This document shows, in pieces, positions 457-18,463 of a stretch of 20,151 bases of DNA (position 1 is its first letter; each line of letters starts with the position of its first letter). The notes beneath the pieces are model-generated. The model made no database searches, had not been told where the DNA came from, and saw only the letters and a program-made list of their open reading frames with translations. A program made the position numbers and the translations under genes. The stretch comes from Pilasporangium apinafurcum (taxonomy: Eukaryota; Oomycota; Peronosporomycetes; Pythiales; Pythiaceae). The stretch covers positions 1-20,151 of the forward strand of contig BCKE01000038.1 of NCBI GenBank assembly GCA_001600495.1, read 5' to 3'.

Positions 457-2070
457 ATGGATGTACAGCTGCATAAGGTTGCTCAAGAGGGAGATCTACA
501 GAGGCTCCAATACCTCGTAGAGGAAGAAGGAGCATCAGTGAATGAGAAGAACGACACTGGTGAGACTTTATTACATGTAACAGCAAGTAAGGGTAATCTT
601 GATATGGTCAAATATTTGATCGACAAAGGCGCATCGGTGAATGAAAAGAACAACTATGGTATGACTCCATTACATGAAGCAGCAAGGTGGGGTCGTCTTG
701 ATATGGTCAAGTATTTGGTCGACAAAGGAGCATCGACGAACCAGAAGGACGAGAATGCCATGACTCCATTACATCTAGCAGCATGGTCAGGTCATCTTGA
801 TATAGTAAAGTATTTGATGGACAGGGGAGCATCAGTGAATGAGAAGAGCGAGAATGGCTGGAGTTTACTACATCGAGCAGCATGTGGGGGTCATCTTGAT
901 GTAGTCAAGTATTTGGTTGAGAATGGAGCATCAATGAATGAAAAAGGCAGTATTGGCAGAACTCCATTATATTTAACAGCAAGGTGGGGTCATCTTGATG
1001 TGGTCAAGTATTTGGTCGACAATGGAGCATCAGTGAATGAGAAGAGCAATGATGACTTGACTCCATTACATGAAGCAACATGGCGGGGTCATCTTGATTT
1101 GGCCAAGTATTTGGTCGACAAAGGAGCATCAGTAAATGAGAAGAACAAATATGACATTAGTTTATTGCATGAAGCAGCAATGCGGGGTCGTATTGATATA
1201 GTCAAGTATTTGATCAACAAAGGAGCATCGGTGAATGAGAAGAACGAGAGTGGCTGGAGTCTACTACATCGAGCAGCATGTGGGGGTCACCTTGATGTTG
1301 TCAAGTATTTGATCGACAGTGGAGCATCAGTGAATGAAAAGAGCAAGGAAGACATGACTCTATTATATGAAACAGCAAAAGTGGGTCATCTTGATATAGT
1401 AAAGTATTTAGTTGACAGTGGAGCATCGGTGAATGAGAAGAACGGCGCTGGTGAGACTTTATTATATGTAGCAGCAAATGAAGGTCATCTTGATGTTGTC
1501 AAATATTTGATCGACAAAGGAGCATTGGTGAATGAAAAGAATACTGATGGCAAAATACCATTGTATCAAGCAGCAAGGTGGGGTCGTTTTGATATAGTAA
1601 AGTATTTGCTCGACAATGGAGCAGCAGTGAATGAGAAGAACGAGAATGGCAAGACGCTATTATATACAGCGGTAAGGCAAGGTCGTCTTGATGTGGTCAA
1701 ATATTTGATCGACAATGGAGCAGCAGTGAATGAGAAGGCCAATAATGGCTGGACTCCATTACATGCAGCAGCAATGCAGGGTCGTCTTGACATAGTCAAA
1801 TATTTGATCAATAAAGAAGCATCAGTGAATGAGAAGAGCAAGGACGACATGACTCCATTACATGGAGCAGCAATGCAGGGGCATCATGATGTGGTGAAGT
1901 GTTTGATCGACAGTGGAGCATCAGTGAATGAAAAGAACAACTATGGCATGACTCCATTGCATGTCGCTACGAGATATGGTCACGCAGAGACCATCAAGCT
2001 GTTACTTGATAATGGTGCTGATCCAGACAACAGCTTTGGAACTCATGGCGATTTATCACCCAACAAGTAG
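457..2070 (+). CDS. Ankyrin-repeat protein, 537 aa, 16 units
   Basis: The protein is almost entirely ankyrin repeats: a 30-residue N-terminal cap, then fifteen 33-residue units (residues 31-537) ending in a short tail. Each unit has the TPLHxAA turn-helix and a GHLDVVKYL second helix, and nearly all end in GASVNEK. There is no signal peptide, membrane segment or catalytic domain, so it is probably a soluble protein-binding scaffold with an unknown partner. The start is the ATG in GCCATGG, a strong Kozak context, closely preceded by an initiator-like site. The frame is open throughout and ends in TAG. Units 4 and 8 are nearly identical in DNA, which points to recent exchange among repeats. The gene converges on a kinase relic downstream. 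The family call is secure; the function is unknown. Confidence 0.93.
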   Translation: MDVQLHKVAQEGDLQRLQYLVEEEGASVNEKNDTGETLLHVTASKGNLDMVKYLIDKGASVNEKNNYGMTPLHEAARWGRLDMVKYLVDKGASTNQKDENAMTPLHLAAWSGHLDIVKYLMDRGASVNEKSENGWSLLHRAACGGHLDVVKYLVENGASMNEKGSIGRTPLYLTARWGHLDVVKYLVDNGASVNEKSNDDLTPLHEATWRGHLDLAKYLVDKGASVNEKNKYDISLLHEAAMRGRIDIVKYLINKGASVNEKNESGWSLLHRAACGGHLDVVKYLIDSGASVNEKSKEDMTLLYETAKVGHLDIVKYLVDSGASVNEKNGAGETLLYVAANEGHLDVVKYLIDKGALVNEKNTDGKIPLYQAARWGRFDIVKYLLDNGAAVNEKNENGKTLLYTAVRQGRLDVVKYLIDNGAAVNEKANNGWTPLHAAAMQGRLDIVKYLINKEASVNEKSKDDMTPLHGAAMQGHHDVVKCLIDSGASVNEKNNYGMTPLHVATRYGHAETIKLLLDNGADPDNSFGTHGDLSPNK

Positions 2071-2369: not shown

Positions 2370-4204
2370 CTACGAGAACAACTCCTGCAAGCGGTGCTGC
2401 TCTTTGTCTTCAGTAATAGCATCCCGTAATTTTGCGTTGTTCGGACACTTTTGTGACTTAACGACTCTTTCATTAGATCTATGCATCCCATAAATACAGC
2501 TTGCTTGATTTCACAGCTGCAAATATGTGTTCAATTGTTGAGGTTTCCTTGTTCTACTTGCTTCTCCCAAGCCCTTATCAATTCGGTCAACCTTAATCTA
2601 TCACGACAATCCTGCTCCCACGTGGCGATCAGATCCCAAGCTTCTTCAATGAGTCGTCCTTCGTGTCGTGGTGAAAGCGTGCTTGCCTTATGTTTGCTGA
2701 TGATGGTGTCTTCATTTTCTGGTTCAATACCTGTTCGACTCTTTATGTCTTTGTTCAGAGTTGCTTCTACGTTGAGTTTTTTCTGTTCTGCTAGCGTCTC
2801 CAGAATCACGATCACTTTCGCCAATTTCATTCTGTTATGATAGTCATGTGCGCACATTTTTTGATCAAATCCCATGCTTCATCAGTGATTTTCCCTTCGG
2901 ATCGTGTTGGCAGTTCGCCAGATTTAATTTTCTCGATGTTTGTGTCCTTCTCTCCCCCTTCATACGGTGGCGATCCGAACATGGCTTCAAAGATGCATAT
3001 TCCCAAAAAATGCACGTCAAATTCAGGACGAGCGTTCGCGTTCACCCTCACTGCAAAGCATTCGGACGCCTTTCAATAATACGATTCTGGCTGCTTCTTG
3101 AAACTTAATGCTGAATTGACGCGCACAAAAGCATACCAAAAGTCCGAAATTACCGCCGTAGTACTTGCAGTCACGAGTAAAGTACTACATTTGAGATTAT
3201 TGTGTACGATATTCTTACTGTGAAGGAACGCGAGGCCACGTGCGACGTCAAGAAACACCTGCCAGAATCGCTGTTTATTTTTGGGTAAATAGTCGTTGAA
3301 ATTCCCTTGCTCAGCATATTCCAAGACAAAAAAACAAAAGGGTTCCAATATGACACACTCCATAAAATGGAAGCACATTGGGATGCTTCAAATCATTCCA
3401 CCTCGTCGTTTCTTCAACGAAACACTTACAAGTCTCCGTATCATCTTCATTTGCATGTACGATCTTGACAACAACTTTGGTCCCCCAATACATGGTAGCG
3501 TGGTGCAGATTGCAAAATTTTCTAGAATCGAAAGGGTTCGCAGTGTCGAAACGAATATCGGAGGGGGAGATATACCATCGTAACGATGATGCAGGTTCTT
3601 ATAGTGACAACGTTCCAAATGTCTATCAGCTTGTCAAACTCATCACACGTATTTAGGTCTTTGTGATATAGGAGTTCATACTTGAGATCAGTAAGCACCA
3701 CCACAGTCACACCTCTTCTCACAATACTCCTGGTGAATTCGTTCAATGCTTCTTTCACGAATTTGTAGAAAATAGCAAAATCTTTCTTGTATTGTTCTTC
3801 TAGGTATCCGTCTCGAACCTTCGCATTCTCGAGCTCCAAATTAGCCAATTCCTTGATGATGTCAATTTGGATGTGAAATTTCTTGATTCTTTCTTTCATT
3901 TTCCAATATTTCCCAATGAGGGTAAAAATGTCGCCCTTACATACTCCTTGAGAAAGTACTTAATGTCTTCGATGAAGTTCTTGTATCTTTGAAGTACTTT
4001 TGTAATCTTGACTTCGCCTTCGTCAAGCATTGCCTTCAATCGTGGATGAAGTAGGTCTAAGCGTTCAACAAGCTCCTTGCACATTTCTTTGTTTTCGTAA
4101 CTCTTAGTGGCTAATTTGTCCAACTCAAATAACAGACTTCCTGTTTCGCCGAGCAGTACTGCATCGGAAGCAATAACAGTCGCTTTTTTCCCGACGACTT
4201 GCAT
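2370..4204 (-). pseudogene. Broken TKL-family pseudokinase with helical N-terminus
   Basis: The reading starts at the ATG at 4204. Residues 1-102 are helical with a NKEMCKELVERLDLLHPRLK pattern, reminiscent of the four-helix bundle of MLKL-like proteins. A coiled segment follows in another frame (3899 to about 3600). The kinase N-lobe then runs from RWYISPSDI to the GTKVVVKIV lysine and HPNVLPFYGVC. The C-lobe has LEYAEQGNFNDYL, IVHNNLK, ISDFW and EAWDLI. The catalytic HxD aspartate is Asn, the following metal-binding Asn is Thr, DFG is DFW, and the glycine loop is lost, so it could not work as a normal kinase. Frameshifts lie near 3897, 3600, 3350 and 2855. TGA stops lie at 3073-3075, where WxAPE expects Trp, and at 2531-2533. 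A third frame carries the tail to TAG at 2370-2372. Sequencing error could explain some breaks, but not the lost catalytic residues. Confidence 0.8.
2373..2946 (-). repeat. Repeated kinase C-lobe tail (two clear copies, one likely third)
   Basis: Copy A (about 2946-2774) and copy B (about 2710-2540) both encode 57 residues and align without gaps: DT at the start, EG then EAWDLI in the middle, then a D-R-L-I pattern ending EQxxL. A third, weaker copy (about 2539-2373) has IDLMKES, PNNAKLRDAI and LQELF at matching places. This part of a kinase normally occurs once. Confidence 0.6.
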
Positions 4205-4398: not shown

Positions 4399-5061
4399 TC
4401 AAAAAATATGACAACCAGGGACTGAAGAGCTATCGGTTGGCACCTGGCAGTTCGCAGAGTTGTTCTCAAGAGCATTTGCGTCAGCGCCATGTCGCAGAAG
4501 AAGTCTCATCATGTCAACATGCTTTTTCTTAGTGGCATATACCAACGGAGTCTGTCCATTCATATCCTTTGCATTTATGTCGGCGCCATGCCGCAGAAGA
4601 AGTTTCGCCAGGTCAACATACCCTTCTCCAGCAGCAAATGCTAGTGAAGTCTGTTCACCAATATTCTTTGCATTTACGTCCGCACCTTCCTCCAAAAGTA
4701 CTTTCATCATGTCACCATTCTCTTTCATAGTAGCATGTATTAGTGGAGTGAATCCCATGATATCCTTCATTTCTGTGTCTGCGCCATGCTGTAGGAAAAA
4801 TCGAACCATTTCCGCATTCCCACTTCCAGTAGCGTATGTTAGCGGAGTCCATCCATGGATATCCTTTGCATTTACGTTGGCACCGTACTGCAGGAGAAGT
4901 CTTGCCATATCCATATCTCCTTTTCCAGCAGCATATATCAGCGAGGTCCACTCGTCTCCATCTTTTTCATCCACATCCATGCCTTGTTGCAAGAGAAGTT
5001 CCACATCTTCCAATGATCTCTCGCTCACAGCTTAAAATAATCTCGACTTGGAATTTCCCAT
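4399..5061 (-). pseudogene. Ankyrin-repeat gene with stop at codon 10
   Basis: From an ATG in strong context (ACCATGG, 5061-5059) the frame reads MGNSKSRLF, then TAA (5034-5032), then AVSERSLEDVELLLQQG and five ankyrin repeats, ending CHIF before TGA. Downstream of the TAA the frame is fully open (209 codons), but its first usable codon is GTG and no ATG occurs until the MDVDEKD segment. LF-E-AV is the expected reading, so one G-to-T change (GAA to TAA) would explain the stop. MGNSKS resembles an N-myristoylation signal, which would place an intact ancestor at membranes. An alternative is that translation starts at the internal ATG, losing the cap helix. A sequencing error at one base is also possible. 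The repeats differ from those of the first ankyrin gene (GADVNAKD type). Confidence 0.8.
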
Positions 5062-11816: not shown

Positions 11817-14800
11817 ATGAGCGGCCTGGTCGTGAAGAGTGTTGAGCTCCATAAGCCGAACGATGACGTTCGTCTTGGGCGAGACCAGAGAAATTCCGTC
11901 AAACTATGGATTGACGGTCTGGTTTGTGAGGAATATTGCACTAAAGTGGTTCGCACCGCTTTGTTGGAGGTTGCAAGTGTTACTGCAGTCACCATCGACT
12001 TTCAGTCTGGGCAAGCTGTCGTGGAGGGGGTCCCGGCTCTGGATGACTTGTGTCGCGCGGTTAAAGCTGTTGGCTACGGAGCTATTCCTATGTTCACAAT
12101 TGACAGCGTCAAAACGCCAACACAGCAAAGTCGGAGGAAAGTGGGAGGTGCTCTGCAAACAGTATGTTACACTATCGACGGAATAGCTACCGGAGAATGC
12201 TACAAGAAAATACAAGAAGCATTGGCTGCTGCTCCGGCTGTGTTTGACTGCATGGTGGACGTGTTTGCGAGTTTAGTTACGTTGACGGTGGCATGTCAGC
12301 AGGCAGCTAATATTCTCGCCTTGCAGCACGCTCTCGAGGTCGCTGAGATCTGCTCGCTACAACAGCAGCTTCGTCTGAAGACTCGTTCCTCCCAGTCCGA
12401 AATTGACGTGAGCGAGGGCTTTTACGATGGTACCGATGCGTCTCCCGGCCAAGTTAGTGACAAGGTCGTTGTCTCTGATCCTTCTGGACCGACTGAGGCA
12501 AGCGGTGCTGAGTACGATTATCGTGAGCTTACCACTCCCAGACCCATAGAACCACTTGAAAGTTCATCAGACAAGAGGTTGGAAGTCCTGATCGATGGCA
12601 TGACGTGTCAGACTTGTGTGCAATCAGTTGAGTCGGCGTTGAGGCAAGTTGAGGGGGTGCGGAAAGCGGATGTCAACCTGATGACTGAGAAGGCGGCTGT
12701 CCATTTCGACCCACGTATTTGTGGTGTGATAGATATCTTAGAGGCAGTCCGCTCTGTTGGCTATGAGTCGTCTGTGGTTGATGATACCTTGAACTCGGTC
12801 TCTCTACAAGTTGAGGGCATGACGTGCTCTTCGTGCTCCAACACGATTGAAAGTGGATTAAGGGCACTTGTTGGAGTATTCAGTGCCGCAGTGAACCTTA
12901 GCACGGAAACCGTCTTTATCAAGTTTGACAGCTCGAAGACGTCTGTGCACGCCCTAGTGGATGTAATCTCATCATTGGGATACACAGTGGTCCTAAGTGA
13001 AGAAGGAAAGGCAGGACCGATGGAGGGCGCGACACAGTCCAAGGATCGAAACTGGATCGCGCACCAGCGACGCTTTATTGGAGCGTTGTTATTGGCTATT
13101 CCCGTCTGGATTGTCATGTTGCTTAAGGCGACAGGAAGCATTGACGATGCTCTTGAGCAAGCGACCATCCCTGGGATGTCGCTGGAATCGCTCTTAACTC
13201 TCCCTTTCGCGACTGCCGTTCAGTTCTGGTCCGGCCGGAGCTTCTATTGGAGCGCATGGTCTGGTCTTCGACACCGCAACATCGGTATGGCAATGCTTGT
13301 CGTTCTTGGCACAAGTGTTGCGTACTTTTATTCCGCGGCGACCATTCTCTACGGCTTAGCTGTGTCAGATCCCGCTGCCGGAGATCCTATGCTCTTCTTC
13401 GACTCCAGCACGTTGATTACCTTTATACTATTAGGGAAGCTTTTGGAGGGCATGGCGAAGAGCCGAACTGCTGACGCTCTCGCGCGGTTGGCAAGTCTTC
13501 AATCTAAGACGGCGCTGCTTATGGGCCCCAATGGTGAAGTAGAGGTACCCGTTGAACAGCTGCACAAGGGAGACATAGTGAAGGTTATCAGAGGTTCTAT
13601 CATTCCAGCGGATGGAAATGTGACCGAAGGTCGAGGGGAAGTGGACGAATCCATGATTACTGGGGAATCTGTGCCAGTCTCAAAGGTCGCAGATGCTCAG
13701 GTGATCGGTGGCACAGTTGCCATTGACGGCTTGCTTCTTGTGCGAGTTGAGCGAGTCGGTGAAGCTTCAACTCTTTGTCAGATCATGCAGTTGGTCGAGA
13801 ACGCACAGCTATCTAAACCTCCGATCCAAGAGCTTGCAGATAGAATATCAGGAGTATTTGTTGGAGTGATGATCGTCATTGCCTTGCTAGCGTTCGTAAT
13901 CTGGTGGTCCCTTTCGGCAGGTGGTGTGGTGCCTGTAAAGTGGCTGCATGGTGACAGTTCTTTTTTGTTCGCCCTGATGTTCGCCGTTTCTACTCTTGTT
14001 GTCGCATGCCCTTGTGCACTTGGCCTCGCGACACCAACAGCGATGATGGTAGGGACTGGAGTTGGAGCTCGGTATGGTGTGTTGATTAAAGGTGGGGAGC
14101 CTTTGCAGAAGGTTCAGAATGTAACGACCGTAGTATTTGATAAGACAGGAACACTAACCAAGGGAGTACCAGTTGTCAGCGATTGGATACCTGCTGTTAC
14201 GAATACGTCACGCACTGCTCAGTTCATGCGGCTTGCAGTTATCGCGGAACAAAACAGTGAACATCCCATTGCTAAAGCTATTGTCAATTTTGCGAAGAAA
14301 CAAGGCGGAGAGAATCTCACGTCAAAGAATGATTTCTTAACCAATTTTAAGGCGGTGTCGGGAGGCGGTGTTGTGTGTACGGTAGGTGGTCATGAAATCG
14401 TCATAGGGAACAAGAAGTTTCTCGCCCAGTTTGGAATTGCTGTGGATACATCAGTCAATGACTCTTCGAGCGGACTGACGGTAGTTTGGGGGGCCATGGA
14501 TGGAGAGATGATAGGCTCGTTTCTCGTGAGAGACGAGATACGGCAAGAAGCAGCAGTGACGGTGGGAAAGTTGCATAAAATGAACGTCCGTGTGCGGATG
14601 CTGACTGGTGATAATTGGGGAACGGCGGAGAGAGTAGCCACTGCTCTAGACATTCCAATGGATTGTGTGACGGCGGAGATGCTGCCGGATGACAAGATAA
14701 ACCGAGTGAAGATGTTTCAAGCACAGGGCGAGATCGTGGCGATGGTCGGTGATGGTATCAACGATTCTCCATCGCTTGCCCAGGCTGATATCGGAATTGC

Positions 14801-15101
14801 AATTGGGGCAGGAACCCAAGTAGCCATGGAGACGGCCGATGTCGTGCTGATGAAGTCTGACTTACGGGATGTAGTGACCGTACTTGATTTATCCCGTGTC
14901 GTCTATCATCGGATCTGCTGGAACTTCGTCGGAGCGTTTGTGTACAATGTTTGTCTCATACCGTTCGCAGCGGGTATCTGGTATCCCCTAACGGAGTTTG
15001 CCCTGCCGCCGTGGGTGTCCGGTATCGCGATGGCTTTGTCGTCAGTAACGGTAGTGGTGTCATCGTTGCTTCTTAATCTTTATCGCCCTCCGCGCTTCTA
15101 G
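11817..15101 (+). CDS. Cu(I)-transporting P1B-type ATPase, 1094 aa
   Basis: It pumps Cu(I) across a membrane, out of the cytosol into a secretory compartment or out of the cell, using ATP. Four heavy-metal-associated folds precede the pump (residues about 28-92, 112-178, 254-320, 327-393). The third and fourth have GMTCQTC and GMTCSSC. The first has CEEYC (CxxxC) and the second lacks the pair, so probably only two bind copper. The core has all hallmarks: TGES at 615-618, CPC at 731-733 in a membrane helix, DKTGT with the phosphorylated Asp775, SEHP at 814-817, TGDN at 930-933 and GDGIND at 978-983. YN (1043-1044) and MALSS (1072-1076) in the last helices mark the Cu(I) subtype. Eight membrane helices are expected. 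It is one uninterrupted exon starting at GGGATGAGC and ending in TAG. All Trp codons are TGG. An ATP7/CCC2-like role is inferred. Confidence 0.97.
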   Translation: MSGLVVKSVELHKPNDDVRLGRDQRNSVKLWIDGLVCEEYCTKVVRTALLEVASVTAVTIDFQSGQAVVEGVPALDDLCRAVKAVGYGAIPMFTIDSVKTPTQQSRRKVGGALQTVCYTIDGIATGECYKKIQEALAAAPAVFDCMVDVFASLVTLTVACQQAANILALQHALEVAEICSLQQQLRLKTRSSQSEIDVSEGFYDGTDASPGQVSDKVVVSDPSGPTEASGAEYDYRELTTPRPIEPLESSSDKRLEVLIDGMTCQTCVQSVESALRQVEGVRKADVNLMTEKAAVHFDPRICGVIDILEAVRSVGYESSVVDDTLNSVSLQVEGMTCSSCSNTIESGLRALVGVFSAAVNLSTETVFIKFDSSKTSVHALVDVISSLGYTVVLSEEGKAGPMEGATQSKDRNWIAHQRRFIGALLLAIPVWIVMLLKATGSIDDALEQATIPGMSLESLLTLPFATAVQFWSGRSFYWSAWSGLRHRNIGMAMLVVLGTSVAYFYSAATILYGLAVSDPAAGDPMLFFDSSTLITFILLGKLLEGMAKSRTADALARLASLQSKTALLMGPNGEVEVPVEQLHKGDIVKVIRGSIIPADGNVTEGRGEVDESMITGESVPVSKVADAQVIGGTVAIDGLLLVRVERVGEASTLCQIMQLVENAQLSKPPIQELADRISGVFVGVMIVIALLAFVIWWSLSAGGVVPVKWLHGDSSFLFALMFAVSTLVVACPCALGLATPTAMMVGTGVGARYGVLIKGGEPLQKVQNVTTVVFDKTGTLTKGVPVVSDWIPAVTNTSRTAQFMRLAVIAEQNSEHPIAKAIVNFAKKQGGENLTSKNDFLTNFKAVSGGGVVCTVGGHEIVIGNKKFLAQFGIAVDTSVNDSSSGLTVVWGAMDGEMIGSFLVRDEIRQEAAVTVGKLHKMNVRVRMLTGDNWGTAERVATALDIPMDCVTAEMLPDDKINRVKMFQAQGEIVAMVGDGINDSPSLAQADIGIAIGAGTQVAMETADVVLMKSDLRDVVTVLDLSRVVYHRICWNFVGAFVYNVCLIPFAAGIWYPLTEFALPPWVSGIAMALSSVTVVVSSLLLNLYRPPRF

Positions 15102-15243
15102 ATACGGTGAAGCGCACGGCATAATGCAAACCTGGATCATGTATCGTTAGCAGGCATGATTGCATTTACGATTACATTAAGATTAATAGTGCTTATTTAT
15201 GAATGCAAGGCGTACCATATCACACTTTAATGTCCTTGTTATT

Positions 15244-15302
15244 TAACCTTCATTCCCCACTTGTACAACGCGTTGTACAAATGATGTAGAGAATAAGGAT
15301 TA
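15244..15302. repeat. Perfect 20-bp palindrome within a longer inverted repeat
   Basis: TTGTACAACGCGTTGTACAA (15261-15280) is a perfect palindrome about 160 bp after the ATPase stop. It is flanked by imperfect inverted arms, TTAACCTTCATTC and GAATAAGGATTAA. The whole could form a cruciform or RNA hairpin. Confidence 0.85.
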
Positions 15303-15699
15303 AAGCTAAGATTGCCTTGAGAGTAGACTTTAGGATTCATTGGATGGAGAGACTTCTTGGTGGCTATTGCTGCGTGCGTAATCATCTTGAAAGGCCATGT
15401 TGACAATCAATCGCGTTTCCAGAAAAATGAAATTATACACCTTGGGTGGGGAAAAAAGGTTAAGATATATGGAGTTAGAGAAACCAACTCTTGAATGAAT
15501 CGTTTCCGGCTTCTCAATAGCGAAGCGTATTGAATTGAAGTATTTACTACCTCACGTCCTAGCAGCCATCCATTGAGTGCTGCTTCAACACCATTTGCCA
15601 AGATGGAAAGAACTGTAGCTTTGAGAAACAGCATAATCAAAGGCACCGAAAAAATCAATCCAACTACGAGGCGTCCTTGTTTTTGAACGTTGTGATAAA
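15303..15699. other. Leader region of the Fanzor copy
   Basis: No gene with a recognisable product. CGTTTCCGG at 15501-15509 faces its complement CCGGAAACG at 17618-17626, on the far side of the Fanzor gene. This could be a remnant of element ends, but 9 bp is short. A minus-strand open frame here (15709-15407) matches nothing I know. Confidence 0.35.
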
Positions 15700-17589
15700 A
15701 TGGCATCAACGAGCGACGGTATTGGAGAGAACACCACTAAAAAGCGGAGAGCCCGTCCGGATTTTGCGGAACGGAAAGTTCGACAAAAGCAAAGCGTATA
15801 CACCACTGTGAAGACTGGGTGGCGAAAGTTTTGCAAAGACAAAAGAATAGCAAAAAAGATTGATGAGGCTGTGCAACTTTGTTCAAGAATAGCATGTGAG
15901 GCATCTATGCTGGCATCCGTCCATGTTCTGCGATTATTGAAAGCTGGCAAAGAACTTCCTCCATTGGATAATGACTTTTTCAATCGATGCTCATCTGTAA
16001 TAGCCAACTTGGCCGGCAGCGAAGAGGTCCATCCTGACTTGGAAACCAGTCGGAATATTTACATGGACCAGCACCCTTCAGTTTATGAACCGACAGAGAA
16101 GAAATCCTATATGACTCAGATGTTGGTTATGATCGCTCAGCACGCAAGGCAGAATTTGCAAGTTAGCAACGAGTTGACGTTCTACTCCTGATTGTGTAAG
16201 TGGATGCGCCTGCGGATACGTCTTCACAACAGTGACTATTTTGAAAAGCACCAAGACAAGATAATCAAGAGTGGTGTTTCACTACTGGTCCGTGCAAGCA
16301 CCCAAACTCAGCATAGCTTATCCAATCTGATGCCCGCGTACTCCAGGTTCAAGAAGTATCCCATCCCTGCTGAGGAGATTGTTTGGATGCAGGAATTATC
16401 GGATAGAGTAAGAAACGAGATCGGATCGCTGCCACTCGACTTGAACAAATCACCGGAACGTCACATACCCTTTCTCCGCACAATGTTGAAAGACATACAA
16501 GCTTATGTGGATGATGGAATGAAGGGTTGCCGAGTCTGGTCTCTGCTTCCACAGAAACAGTTCAAACCCATTTTCATCAAGATCAACACCACCGTCCTGA
16601 AGAAACTTGCTAAGGCTTTGGGTGACCCTGTTGAGCTTTACGCCGACAAAGCTGAGTTATGGCGCACGTACTTCAATATAGGTCTTGTGACCAAAGACNA
16701 GCGAAAGGAGTTTGAGCACTTCATCTCGACCGACGGTATGTCAGTTGGTGTGACAATCTCCCGTCCAAAGCTTCCCGCGAGAGAGAAATAAAGGCATTTT
16801 CTCTTGAAGACCAGATCATCGGTTTAGATCCGGAGAGAAAGAAGATCTTCACTGCTGTTGTCTACAAAGAGAAAAGCATGGCTACTTTGCAAAAATCGAA
16901 AGGAGAGAACGTAAAACATGAAGTCATCCACTGGTCTAAGGGCCATTTTTACAGAGAGTGCGACTACCATAGACGAACAAAGTTGACCAAAGAGTGGATT
17001 GATGCCGAGCCTGACATCAAAATCTTCAATGAAAACGTTCCTTCGGCAAAAGTTGCGGATCTTGCCTCCTATTTGAAACGGATGAGATTTTGTTTCGTGT
17101 ATTTAGATCATCTTCTTGACGTGTATTCATCAAGGAGGATGAAGAGGCTACGATGGTCGACCTACATCCGTCGACAAAAGACGTACGAGAAGGTAGTCAA
17201 GAGCCTTACAGATGGCGATAAATGAACTGCTATCGCATATGGAGATGCAAGTTTCACAAGCTCAGCTAAAGGCAACATTGCTGTTCCTACGGAAGAAAAT
17301 TAGTTCCAGGTGTCGTGTTGCTGATGTGAATGAATTCAGGACGAGCAAGCTATGTTGTACTTGTCACAAGAAGATGAAGGGGTTCGTCCTTGACGAAAGA
17401 ATTGTCAGTGACGGTCTTTATGGTGTGCAACACTGCAAAAATAGTGAATGCTATCACACATTGTGGGACCGTGACATCAACGCCGCAATCAAGATTTTGA
17501 GACTATTCATCGACCAAGTGAAGAAAAAGAGGAGACTCAAGGCGTTCATGAGGAAAGAGAATGAATTGGTACTCGAAATCAAAAACTGA
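15700..17589 (+). pseudogene. Fanzor nuclease pseudogene (copy 1), nearly full length
   Basis: Fanzors are eukaryotic relatives of TnpB/Cas12 that cut DNA guided by an RNA. The reading totals about 630 residues. From the ATG at 15700 it begins with a nuclear-localisation-like TKKRRARP and a helical N-terminal half. RuvC-I is IIGLDPERKKIFTAVV (Asp at 16827-16829). RuvC-II is VADVNEFRTSK (Glu at 17332-17334), preceded by AIAYGDASF. The zinc finger is CCTC with HCKNSEC, and RuvC-III is DRDINAA (Asp at 17473-17475). All catalytic residues are kept. Breaks: TGA at 16189-16191, a frameshift near 16775-16791, TGA at 17223-17225, and a two-base loss or one-base gain near 17286-17291. One N lies at 16699. 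Because flanking pieces stay in register, decay looks recent; sequencing error cannot be excluded. No transposase is seen beside it. Confidence 0.88.
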
Positions 17590-17634
17590 GGTGATAAACG
17601 ATGTCACTGCTATGATTCCGGAAACGGATGAGTG

Positions 17635-17650
17635 TAACCTTTATTCCCCA
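17635..17650 (+). repeat. Direct copy of a 16-nt word flanking Fanzor copy 1
   Basis: TAACCTTTATTCCCCA matches 15244-15259 (TAACCTTCATTCCCCA) at 15 of 16 positions in the same orientation. The two copies bracket 2.4 kb containing the Fanzor gene. They are too long for a usual target duplication, but could be duplicated flank or terminal sequence. From 17651 to 17795 I see no gene. Confidence 0.5.
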
Positions 17651-17795
17651 GGTTAAAGCGAATTAGGTTCTATATCTGCAGTTTGGCATAACAAACATCG
17701 AAGGCTGGGAGGATACTAGACATCATAGGCTGAATGTACAATGAATGTAAGATGTGCGATAGCATTACTGCCTCTCAACACGCTAGAGTCTATGA

Positions 17796-18463
17796 CTAAG
17801 CGACAGACATCATCCCCATGCTACCTTTCATCGTTGACATGCTTCCCATTGCTGGTGGCATATTATGTCCACTGTCTTCCTCGGGAAGATCAAAAGAGTA
17901 GTTCTATTTGGTCGCGCCGGGAGTTCCGCAAAACACGGATAGACCATCGCTCCTACTAGTGCACATGACCTGCCAGGACTGGCAGCCCGACGTTTCTGCC
18001 ATCGTTCCCATGGCGGCCGCCTTCTGAGAGTAGCGGCTAAGATCTGCACGAGAGGAAGCCTATCGACAAATGGATCTGTGCAATTTGTCGCACTCTGACA
18101 TAACTCATAGCCTTCCATCATCATAAACGCGCTGGCCTTCAACAGATTTGTTGCCCCCATAGACGGCGGCACCAGATTCGCAATCGGAGGATTTGACAAG
18201 CACTGCTTCACGGCAGATCTTGCTCTGCACAATCTGACAACAGGCACACACTCATCAAAAGCCGTCATCTCAGGCTCATCTGTGCATAGATCTCGCATGA
18301 TGCTCGTTGTGCTGCAGGCATAGTCCACCGCGTTATTCCTTGCCAGAGACTGCCTTGCAATACTGCAAACCGACATTTGAAGCATCGTTCGACAAAGTGC
18401 TCTAATACTCTGTGTTAGGTATGTCGATGGCAACTCGAATGCGGCGCATGCACACTGTGTGGG
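17796..18463 (-). pseudogene. Cys-rich, Met-rich protein relic, possibly CTR-type copper importer ectodomain
   Basis: The minus-strand frame opens after TGA (18466-18464) with CACAAFELPSTYLTQ and carries about ten regularly spaced cysteines to DPFVDRLP. Near 18045-18060 the reading shifts frame to AAAMGTMAETSGCQSW and DGLSVFCG. TAG follows at 17906-17904, then in the same frame a methionine-rich run, NMPPAMGSMSTMKGSMGMMS, and a final TAG (17798-17796). Methionine clusters of this MxM/MxxM kind bind Cu(I) in the extracellular part of CTR-type importers, and the neighbour is a copper ATPase. The expected three membrane helices after the Met motif are not visible, so the relic seems truncated. 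The start is also missing; a CACAG just before CACAAF could be a splice acceptor. A different secreted Cys-rich protein is possible. Confidence 0.45.

Follow-up and report, generated by a model that had tools for sequence, protein, structure and literature searches.

Fanzor1 genes have been described by Bao and Jurka (2013) in Helitron, Mariner, IS4, Sola and MuDr elements (PMC3627910). In the same description the insect-virus Fanzor1 families HVav-1, SFav-1, PUgv-1, HAgv-1 and HAmn-1, which have 4-bp TTAN duplications and 13-bp terminal inverted repeats (TIRs), are placed in none of these groups (PMC3627910). Fanzor1 guide RNAs are described as having three stems, as including the TIR and the target-site duplication (TSD), and as extending past the TSD (PMC10711439). 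The RNA of SpuFz1, from the element SPu-1 of Spizellomyces punctatus, is reported to lie between the stop codon and the right repeat; the same source gives for SpuFz1 a conserved CA outside the left repeat and the motif CATA, and for GtFz1 the motif TTAAN (PMC10432273).

The elements analysed here form a new family within the known Fanzor1 transposons; no account of this palindromic-ended family was found in the openly licensed (CC) PMC literature. The new family resembles the insect-virus families, as these are described, in its TTAN duplication and in that no transposase was found in the element (PMC3627910), and its outer arm of 13-14 nt after TTAA is, compared by description, close in length to their 13-bp TIRs. 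It differs from them in occupying more than 100 places of a cellular genome, in its long palindromic ends, and in that 30 of 30 copies are broken. As in the accounts of SPu-1 and SpuFz1 (PMC10432273, PMC3627910), there is a single-frame Fanzor1, of 633 residues, with inverted-repeat ends, a predicted scaffold between the stop codon and the right repeat, and conserved bases outside the left end; in contrast, SPu-1 is described with TA duplications, a CATA motif and intact copies, where the new family has TTAN and none of 30 frames intact. CMe-1A of Cyanidioschyzon merolae is similar in having about 150 diverged Fanzor1-bearing copies in one genome, but is described without TIRs and with no duplication assigned, both of which are present here (PMC3627910). 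Helitron2 elements have hairpins at both ends, a RepHel protein and asymmetric TIRs, whereas the ends of the new family are symmetric and accompanied by a TTAN duplication.

The window, i.e. the whole stretch of DNA that was analysed, consists of 20,151 nt of the oomycete Pilasporangium apinafurcum (contig BCKE01000038.1). It contains one copy of the family, a transposon spanning 15243-17656 (2.4 kb) that encloses a broken gene. This copy is very probably a decayed relic of a small Fanzor-bearing transposon, not a live or newly lost gene. Elsewhere in the window, at 457-2070 (+), 4399-5028 (-) and 3073-3378 (-), two ankyrin-repeat frames and one protein-kinase fragment are seen. The features of the transposon copy are:

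15242, plus strand: T adjacent to the left TTAA on its outer side, a candidate component of a target-adjacent motif (T+TTAN)
15243-15246, no strand: left target-site duplication TTAA, from left/right comparison and the empty-site paralogues of two other copies
15247-15303, no strand: left terminal palindrome, outer arm CCTTTATTCCCCA, core TTGTACAACGCGTTGTACAA, mutated here and perfect elsewhere, e.g. in copy L034
15304-15699, plus strand: 5' leader, conserved across copies, no frame assigned
15700-17589, plus strand: broken Fanzor1-type gene, ATG at 15700 and stop at 17587-17589, recognized by PF07282, the TnpB model and RuvC residues
16189-16191, plus strand: in-frame TGA, found in the window copy alone among 30
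16786, plus strand: 1-nt deletion, place approximate, also in L029 and L035
16827-16829, plus strand: RuvC-I Asp D377, in DPE where DPG is usual, from copy comparison
17223-17225, plus strand: in-frame TGA, also in 6 other copies (5 without the duplicate L028)
17286, plus strand: 11-nt deletion, place approximate, also in L025 and L037
17332-17334, plus strand: RuvC-II Glu E549, six residues ahead of the zinc finger as in Fanzors
17353-17451, plus strand: zinc finger with four cysteines (C556, C559, C583, C588), from the PF07282 match and copy comparison
17473-17475, plus strand: RuvC-III Asp D596, from copy comparison
17587-17650, plus strand: remnant of the predicted guide-RNA scaffold, with a mispaired stem 1, a stem 2 at 17617-17628 that has a GAAA loop, and one arm, the first, of the right palindrome
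17635-17652, no strand: collapsed right terminal palindrome, about 66 nt when intact
17653-17656, no strand: right target-site duplication TTAA, after which a guide would begin

The family reading frame comprises 634 codons including the stop (633 residues). It has a single stop, the terminal one, whereas the other two phases have 27 and 40 stops in 633 codons each, indicating a frame beyond chance. The sequence-only reading had named the gene a Fanzor, and the profile searches agree: the last piece of the gene matches PF07282 with 31.0 bits (cut-off 26.3, E 2.8e-7) and NCBIfam guided_TnpB with E 1.5e-6, the latter under the cut-off of the model. The same piece searched alone against the PDB gave no hit. 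The RuvC half of a relative, L063, resembles the Spizellomyces punctatus Fanzor structure 8gkh (E 3.1e-4), with the Glu in DEYKTS aligned, and this sequence match to SpuFz1 suggests the assignment to Fanzor1. In Fanzors the RuvC-II Glu is described as lying six residues N-terminal of the zinc finger (PMC10711439); the window sequence around this residue is VNEFRTSKLC. The RuvC-I motif is DPG, as in Fanzor1, in the majority of 29 copies, and the DPE of the window can be read from this comparison as decay of one copy. The gene contains one N, at 16699.

The genome comprises 36.5 Mb in 136 contigs. A DNA search of it with 15000-17900 gave at least 63 matches (40 of 279 candidates scored). From these, 29 other near-full copies were fetched with their flanks, giving 30 with the window; L027 and L028 represent one duplication, so that 29 of the 30 are independent. 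A 199-residue middle piece of the protein gave at least 152 matches (150 of 247 candidates scored), and the 150 matches listed, merged at 1.2 kb, fall in at least 131 places, fragments included. PF07282 has 852 first-look candidates in the genome; all 150 that were scored pass the cut-off, and they include several Fanzor types. Among the 30 copies a recognisable left arm is present in 28 and a right arm in 21, and the flanks are unlike. In-frame stops interrupt each of the 30 at least once, no stretch being open for more than 549 residues (L025), and the intact homologues for which a search had been proposed did not appear among these near-full copies.

The copies have a mean pairwise identity of 91.2%, i.e. 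they are about 9% apart, and their tree has long tips and short inner branches. By a rough count, the ratio of nonsynonymous to synonymous variants (N/S) relative to expectation is 0.92 for variants in one copy, 0.96 for those in two, 0.72 for those in 3-6 and 0.61 for those in 7-14 copies. There was weak constraint in the past and almost none later; decay is near neutral. RIP-like hypermutation was considered as a separate matter and rejected: among C-to-T departures CpA is the least affected context (CpC 9.2%, CpG 8.2%, CpT 4.6%, CpA 4.0%), with a twofold excess at CpC and CpG.

The four breaks reported for the gene, two in-frame TGA codons and deletions of 1 and 11 nt, are present in the sequence as given, frame changes being called relative to the 29 other copies. 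They had been ascribed either to very recent loss of the nuclease or to base errors in a live gene, and comparison with the family supports neither account. A loss at this locus so recent that the gene would still be nearly functional is very unlikely. It draws on the retention of the three RuvC acids and the four zinc-finger cysteines, and this observation stands but carries little weight: all seven residues are retained in 18 of 29 copies, where control sets of like residue types give a mean of 14.4 (SD 5.1) and 30% of 2,000 sets match or exceed 18. Since this is no better than the controls, the retained active site of the window says nothing on recency. The window copy is at best 92.8% identical to any of the 29 fetched copies and has an average break load, 2 stops and 2 frameshifts where the other 28 independent copies have on average 2.8 and 1.3. 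Its DPG motif has changed, its palindrome at the right end has collapsed, and stem 1 of its predicted guide RNA is mispaired.

Sequencing or assembly errors in a live gene might be suspected from the N in the gene and the Ns in some other copies. However, three of the four breaks are found at identical positions elsewhere in the family, 29 of 29 other copies are broken too, and the adjoining frame at 11817-15101 (+) is clean; it encodes a heavy-metal P-type ATPase with three HMA domains over 1,094 unbroken codons and served as a control of sequence quality. We give errors hardly any credence. A spliced gene with the breaks inside introns would suit a genome of eukaryote type (36.5 Mb, with ankyrin, kinase and piggyBac-type genes), but the frame of the other copies continues across the break sites and the deletions measure only 1 and 11 nt, making introns the most improbable of these explanations. 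The 11-nt and 1-nt breaks recur without a common local background, which points to mutational hot spots rather than base errors. Gene conversion behind the shared 11-nt deletion was rejected, as the window has no local similarity to the other two carriers, and recurrence of this deletion is taken, from the sequence comparison, as repeated mutation. Shared breaks in general are therefore not proof of common descent, which is argued below only from breaks within supported clades with unlike flanks. The window copy is best regarded as the decayed relic proposed above.

At each end the family has a palindrome of about 66 nt, which in some copies is perfect, for example on the left in L034 and on the right in L029. 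The left and right palindromes have the outer arm TTAACCTTTATTCCCCAC in common, while their cores are unlike. With no more than one mismatch allowed, the genome contains the arm TTAACCTTTATTCCCCA 426 times and the reversed control 0 times. Ends were gathered by pattern from the loci in hand, so that badly decayed ends are absent from the following counts. In 56 distinct right ends the fourth base of TTAN is A in 46, C in 4, G in 4 and T in 2; in left ends it is A in 35 of 41. Four copies have a non-A fourth base on the left with both ends in register, of which L023 and L038 match the right end and L030 and L033 differ from it. L019 has A on the left and C on the right, and L012 is out of register.

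A paralogous empty site of L026 fits one TTAN with one mismatch, and that of L038 fits TTAC, the left 127 nt adjoining the site being unaligned; an empty site of L007, from a second family described below, has one base unlike TTAA. Empty sites were sought for five more copies and none was seen; the two flanks of each of these copies overlap by 3-5 nt where they join, as expected from a short duplication. A 4-bp TTAN duplication is supported by few but direct cases. The TA duplication of Tc1/Mariner Fanzor elements was not found, since TTAN fits both empty sites of the window family, although at sites with A as the fourth base a TA duplication combined with a preference for TTAN could give the same pattern. 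At L083:209-274 a left-type palindrome stands by itself, flanked by TTAA left and right and without an attached element; the palindromic ends may be able to move alone.

A guide-RNA gene had been suggested for either flank of the Fanzor gene. The right flank (17587-17656) is a plausible site, and the left is not. In 50 right ends, each of 100-118 nt without N and with shorter, collapsed ends omitted, the sequence that runs from the stop codon as far as TTAN can fold into three stems: stem 1 is predicted to overlap the stop codon, stem 2 has a GAAA-type loop, and the third stem is the right palindrome. Folding z-scores are -11.9 for L029, -11.9 for L023 and -6.0 for L095, compared with -1.15 for the window. 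Stems 1 and 2 together show pairing in 94.6% of cells. In stem 2, double changes occupy 5 cells (shuffled mean 2.1, reached in 23 of 500 shuffles) and affect 3 pairs (reached in 112 of 500 shuffles), and in stem 1 no double change was found among the 50 right ends. The right palindrome has double changes in 13 of 30 pairs (1 of 500 shuffles) and in 44 cells, against a shuffled mean of 21.3, with 0 of 500 shuffles reaching 44; this covariation may arise at the DNA level. A candidate guide RNA on the right flank, with a predicted three-stem fold that fits the Fanzor1 description and is weakly supported in stems 1 and 2, is therefore plausible; its transcription, and cleavage guided by it, are presumed. 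In the window copy the collapse of the right palindrome removes the third stem, and probably neither the guide RNA nor the right end still functions. Most likely this copy has no remaining activity as a nuclease, guide RNA or transposon end.

The base before the left TTAN is T in 35 of 41 ends, C in 5 and G in 1. At the mirror position, 20 of 56 right ends have A (Fisher p 1e-6 against the T in 35 of 41 on the left). T-TTAN is thus a candidate target-adjacent motif on the left side. Two observations speak against it: the right side prefers purines (42 of 56, p 0.001), and the second family, which has the same left end, is also T-biased (5 T and 2 C of 7), so the preference may partly be that of the transposase.

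This second Fanzor family comprises L002, L003, L004, L006 and L007, which have 75-96% DNA identity in parts. Seven of its left ends (L070, L072, L073, L074, L077, L006 and L007) start with the 17 nt of the window family, the first five having been found by that 17-nt pattern. On the right, similarity ends at GG(A)TTAA in five loci; no palindrome was found there, nor any arm at up to 4 mismatches in the five loci. In L003 the frame is unbroken over 504 codons from stop to stop and includes DPG as well as the Glu placed as in Fanzors. Its protein matches PF07282, PF12323 and PF01385 (the latter under its cut-off), and BLASTP detected no similarity between it and the window family (best E 1.4). 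Viral relatives of the two Fanzors were sought and none was confirmed. The end sequence matched 19 viral contigs, once in 17 of them and twice, on a single strand, in the other 2; these matches are taken as chance.

A third Fanzor/TnpB type was observed at L001 (G000:C7) and L005 (G000:C135), which have 604 nt in common at 90%. L005 has DPG and no Glu six residues ahead of the zinc finger; a Glu about 54 residues upstream of the finger is near the position in bacterial TnpB. Its frame, of 572 codons within the locus, adjoins an opposite-strand ORF with HTH_23 and HTH_33, which has a weak match to the HTH of IS630 transposases. At G000:C53:214292 and C29:297585, Fanzor-domain matches lie inside frames of 8,140 and 2,332 codons, perhaps N runs.

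Some broken copies of the window family moved. L033 and L036, about 2% apart with unlike flanks, have a 1-nt insertion and a 4-nt deletion exclusive to the pair, and also share two stops seen elsewhere. The supported clade L012/L013/L030 shares a stop exclusive to it. L062 and L063 are internally deleted yet have both ends, the right palindrome of L062 being shortened. The movement of broken and internally deleted copies indicates that the gene of the element itself was not needed, and points to machinery, presumably a transposase, acting in trans.

A transposase with these ends was sought and not found: of the three piggyBac-type matches in the genome, none has intact ends in the DNA read. 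It is possible, though doubtful, that the ends are of piggyBac or another TTAA-specific type and that one of the few piggyBac-like genes moved the family. The TTAA preference speaks for this, as does a 540-residue DDE_Tnp_1_7 ORF on contig C5, which lies between two right-type palindromes about 5.4 kb apart (the locus is covered by L059:1420-3475 and L064:1465-1510). Against it, those palindromes are degenerate and also have a tRNA-Thr gene between them, and the fourth base varies (A in 46 of 56 right ends). Moreover, 100 of the 426 arm places were listed, 49 of them away from known Fanzor matches, and 20 of these 49 were read at about 165 nt each; 13 belong to the window family and 5 to the second, and of the other two one is a solo palindrome and one is unclear. 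The ORF is suggestive, but not conclusive, as a source of transposase.

The interpretation we favour, with considerable confidence, is that the window holds a dead copy of a high-copy Fanzor1 transposon without a transposase of its own. The element would have used TTAN, most often TTAA, as its insertion site, and would have had a long palindrome at either end, with outer arms common to both. It would have carried one gene, for a 633-residue RNA-guided nuclease, whose 3' end ran into the guide-RNA scaffold. The right palindrome would have had two functions, one as an end of the transposon and the other as the last guide-RNA stem, the guide itself being taken from flanking DNA. The elements would have been moved by a transposase in trans, and the nuclease presumably cut the empty site, favouring copying.

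A more speculative combination, which we consider unlikely, is that the TTAN-inserting end was a shared vehicle for unrelated Fanzors, that the T-TTAN on the left is the footprint of a nuclease motif, and that the right palindrome had a dual role. The surviving insertions would then be those for which cleavage of the empty allele by the nuclease allowed copying back, and copies with a dead gene would also have been served in trans. The second family, which has the left end and the TTAA boundary but lacks the right palindrome, makes this combination less likely.

The dead high-copy transposon proposed for the window is in itself an ordinary locus, and the family to which it belongs is a usable data set. 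It illustrates how RNA-guided cutters travel, and together with the second family it shows two unrelated Fanzors with one type of left transposon end. Its many independent insertions, with 41 left and 56 right readable ends, allow a test, from sequence alone, of whether an RNA-guided nuclease shaped where its transposon survives.
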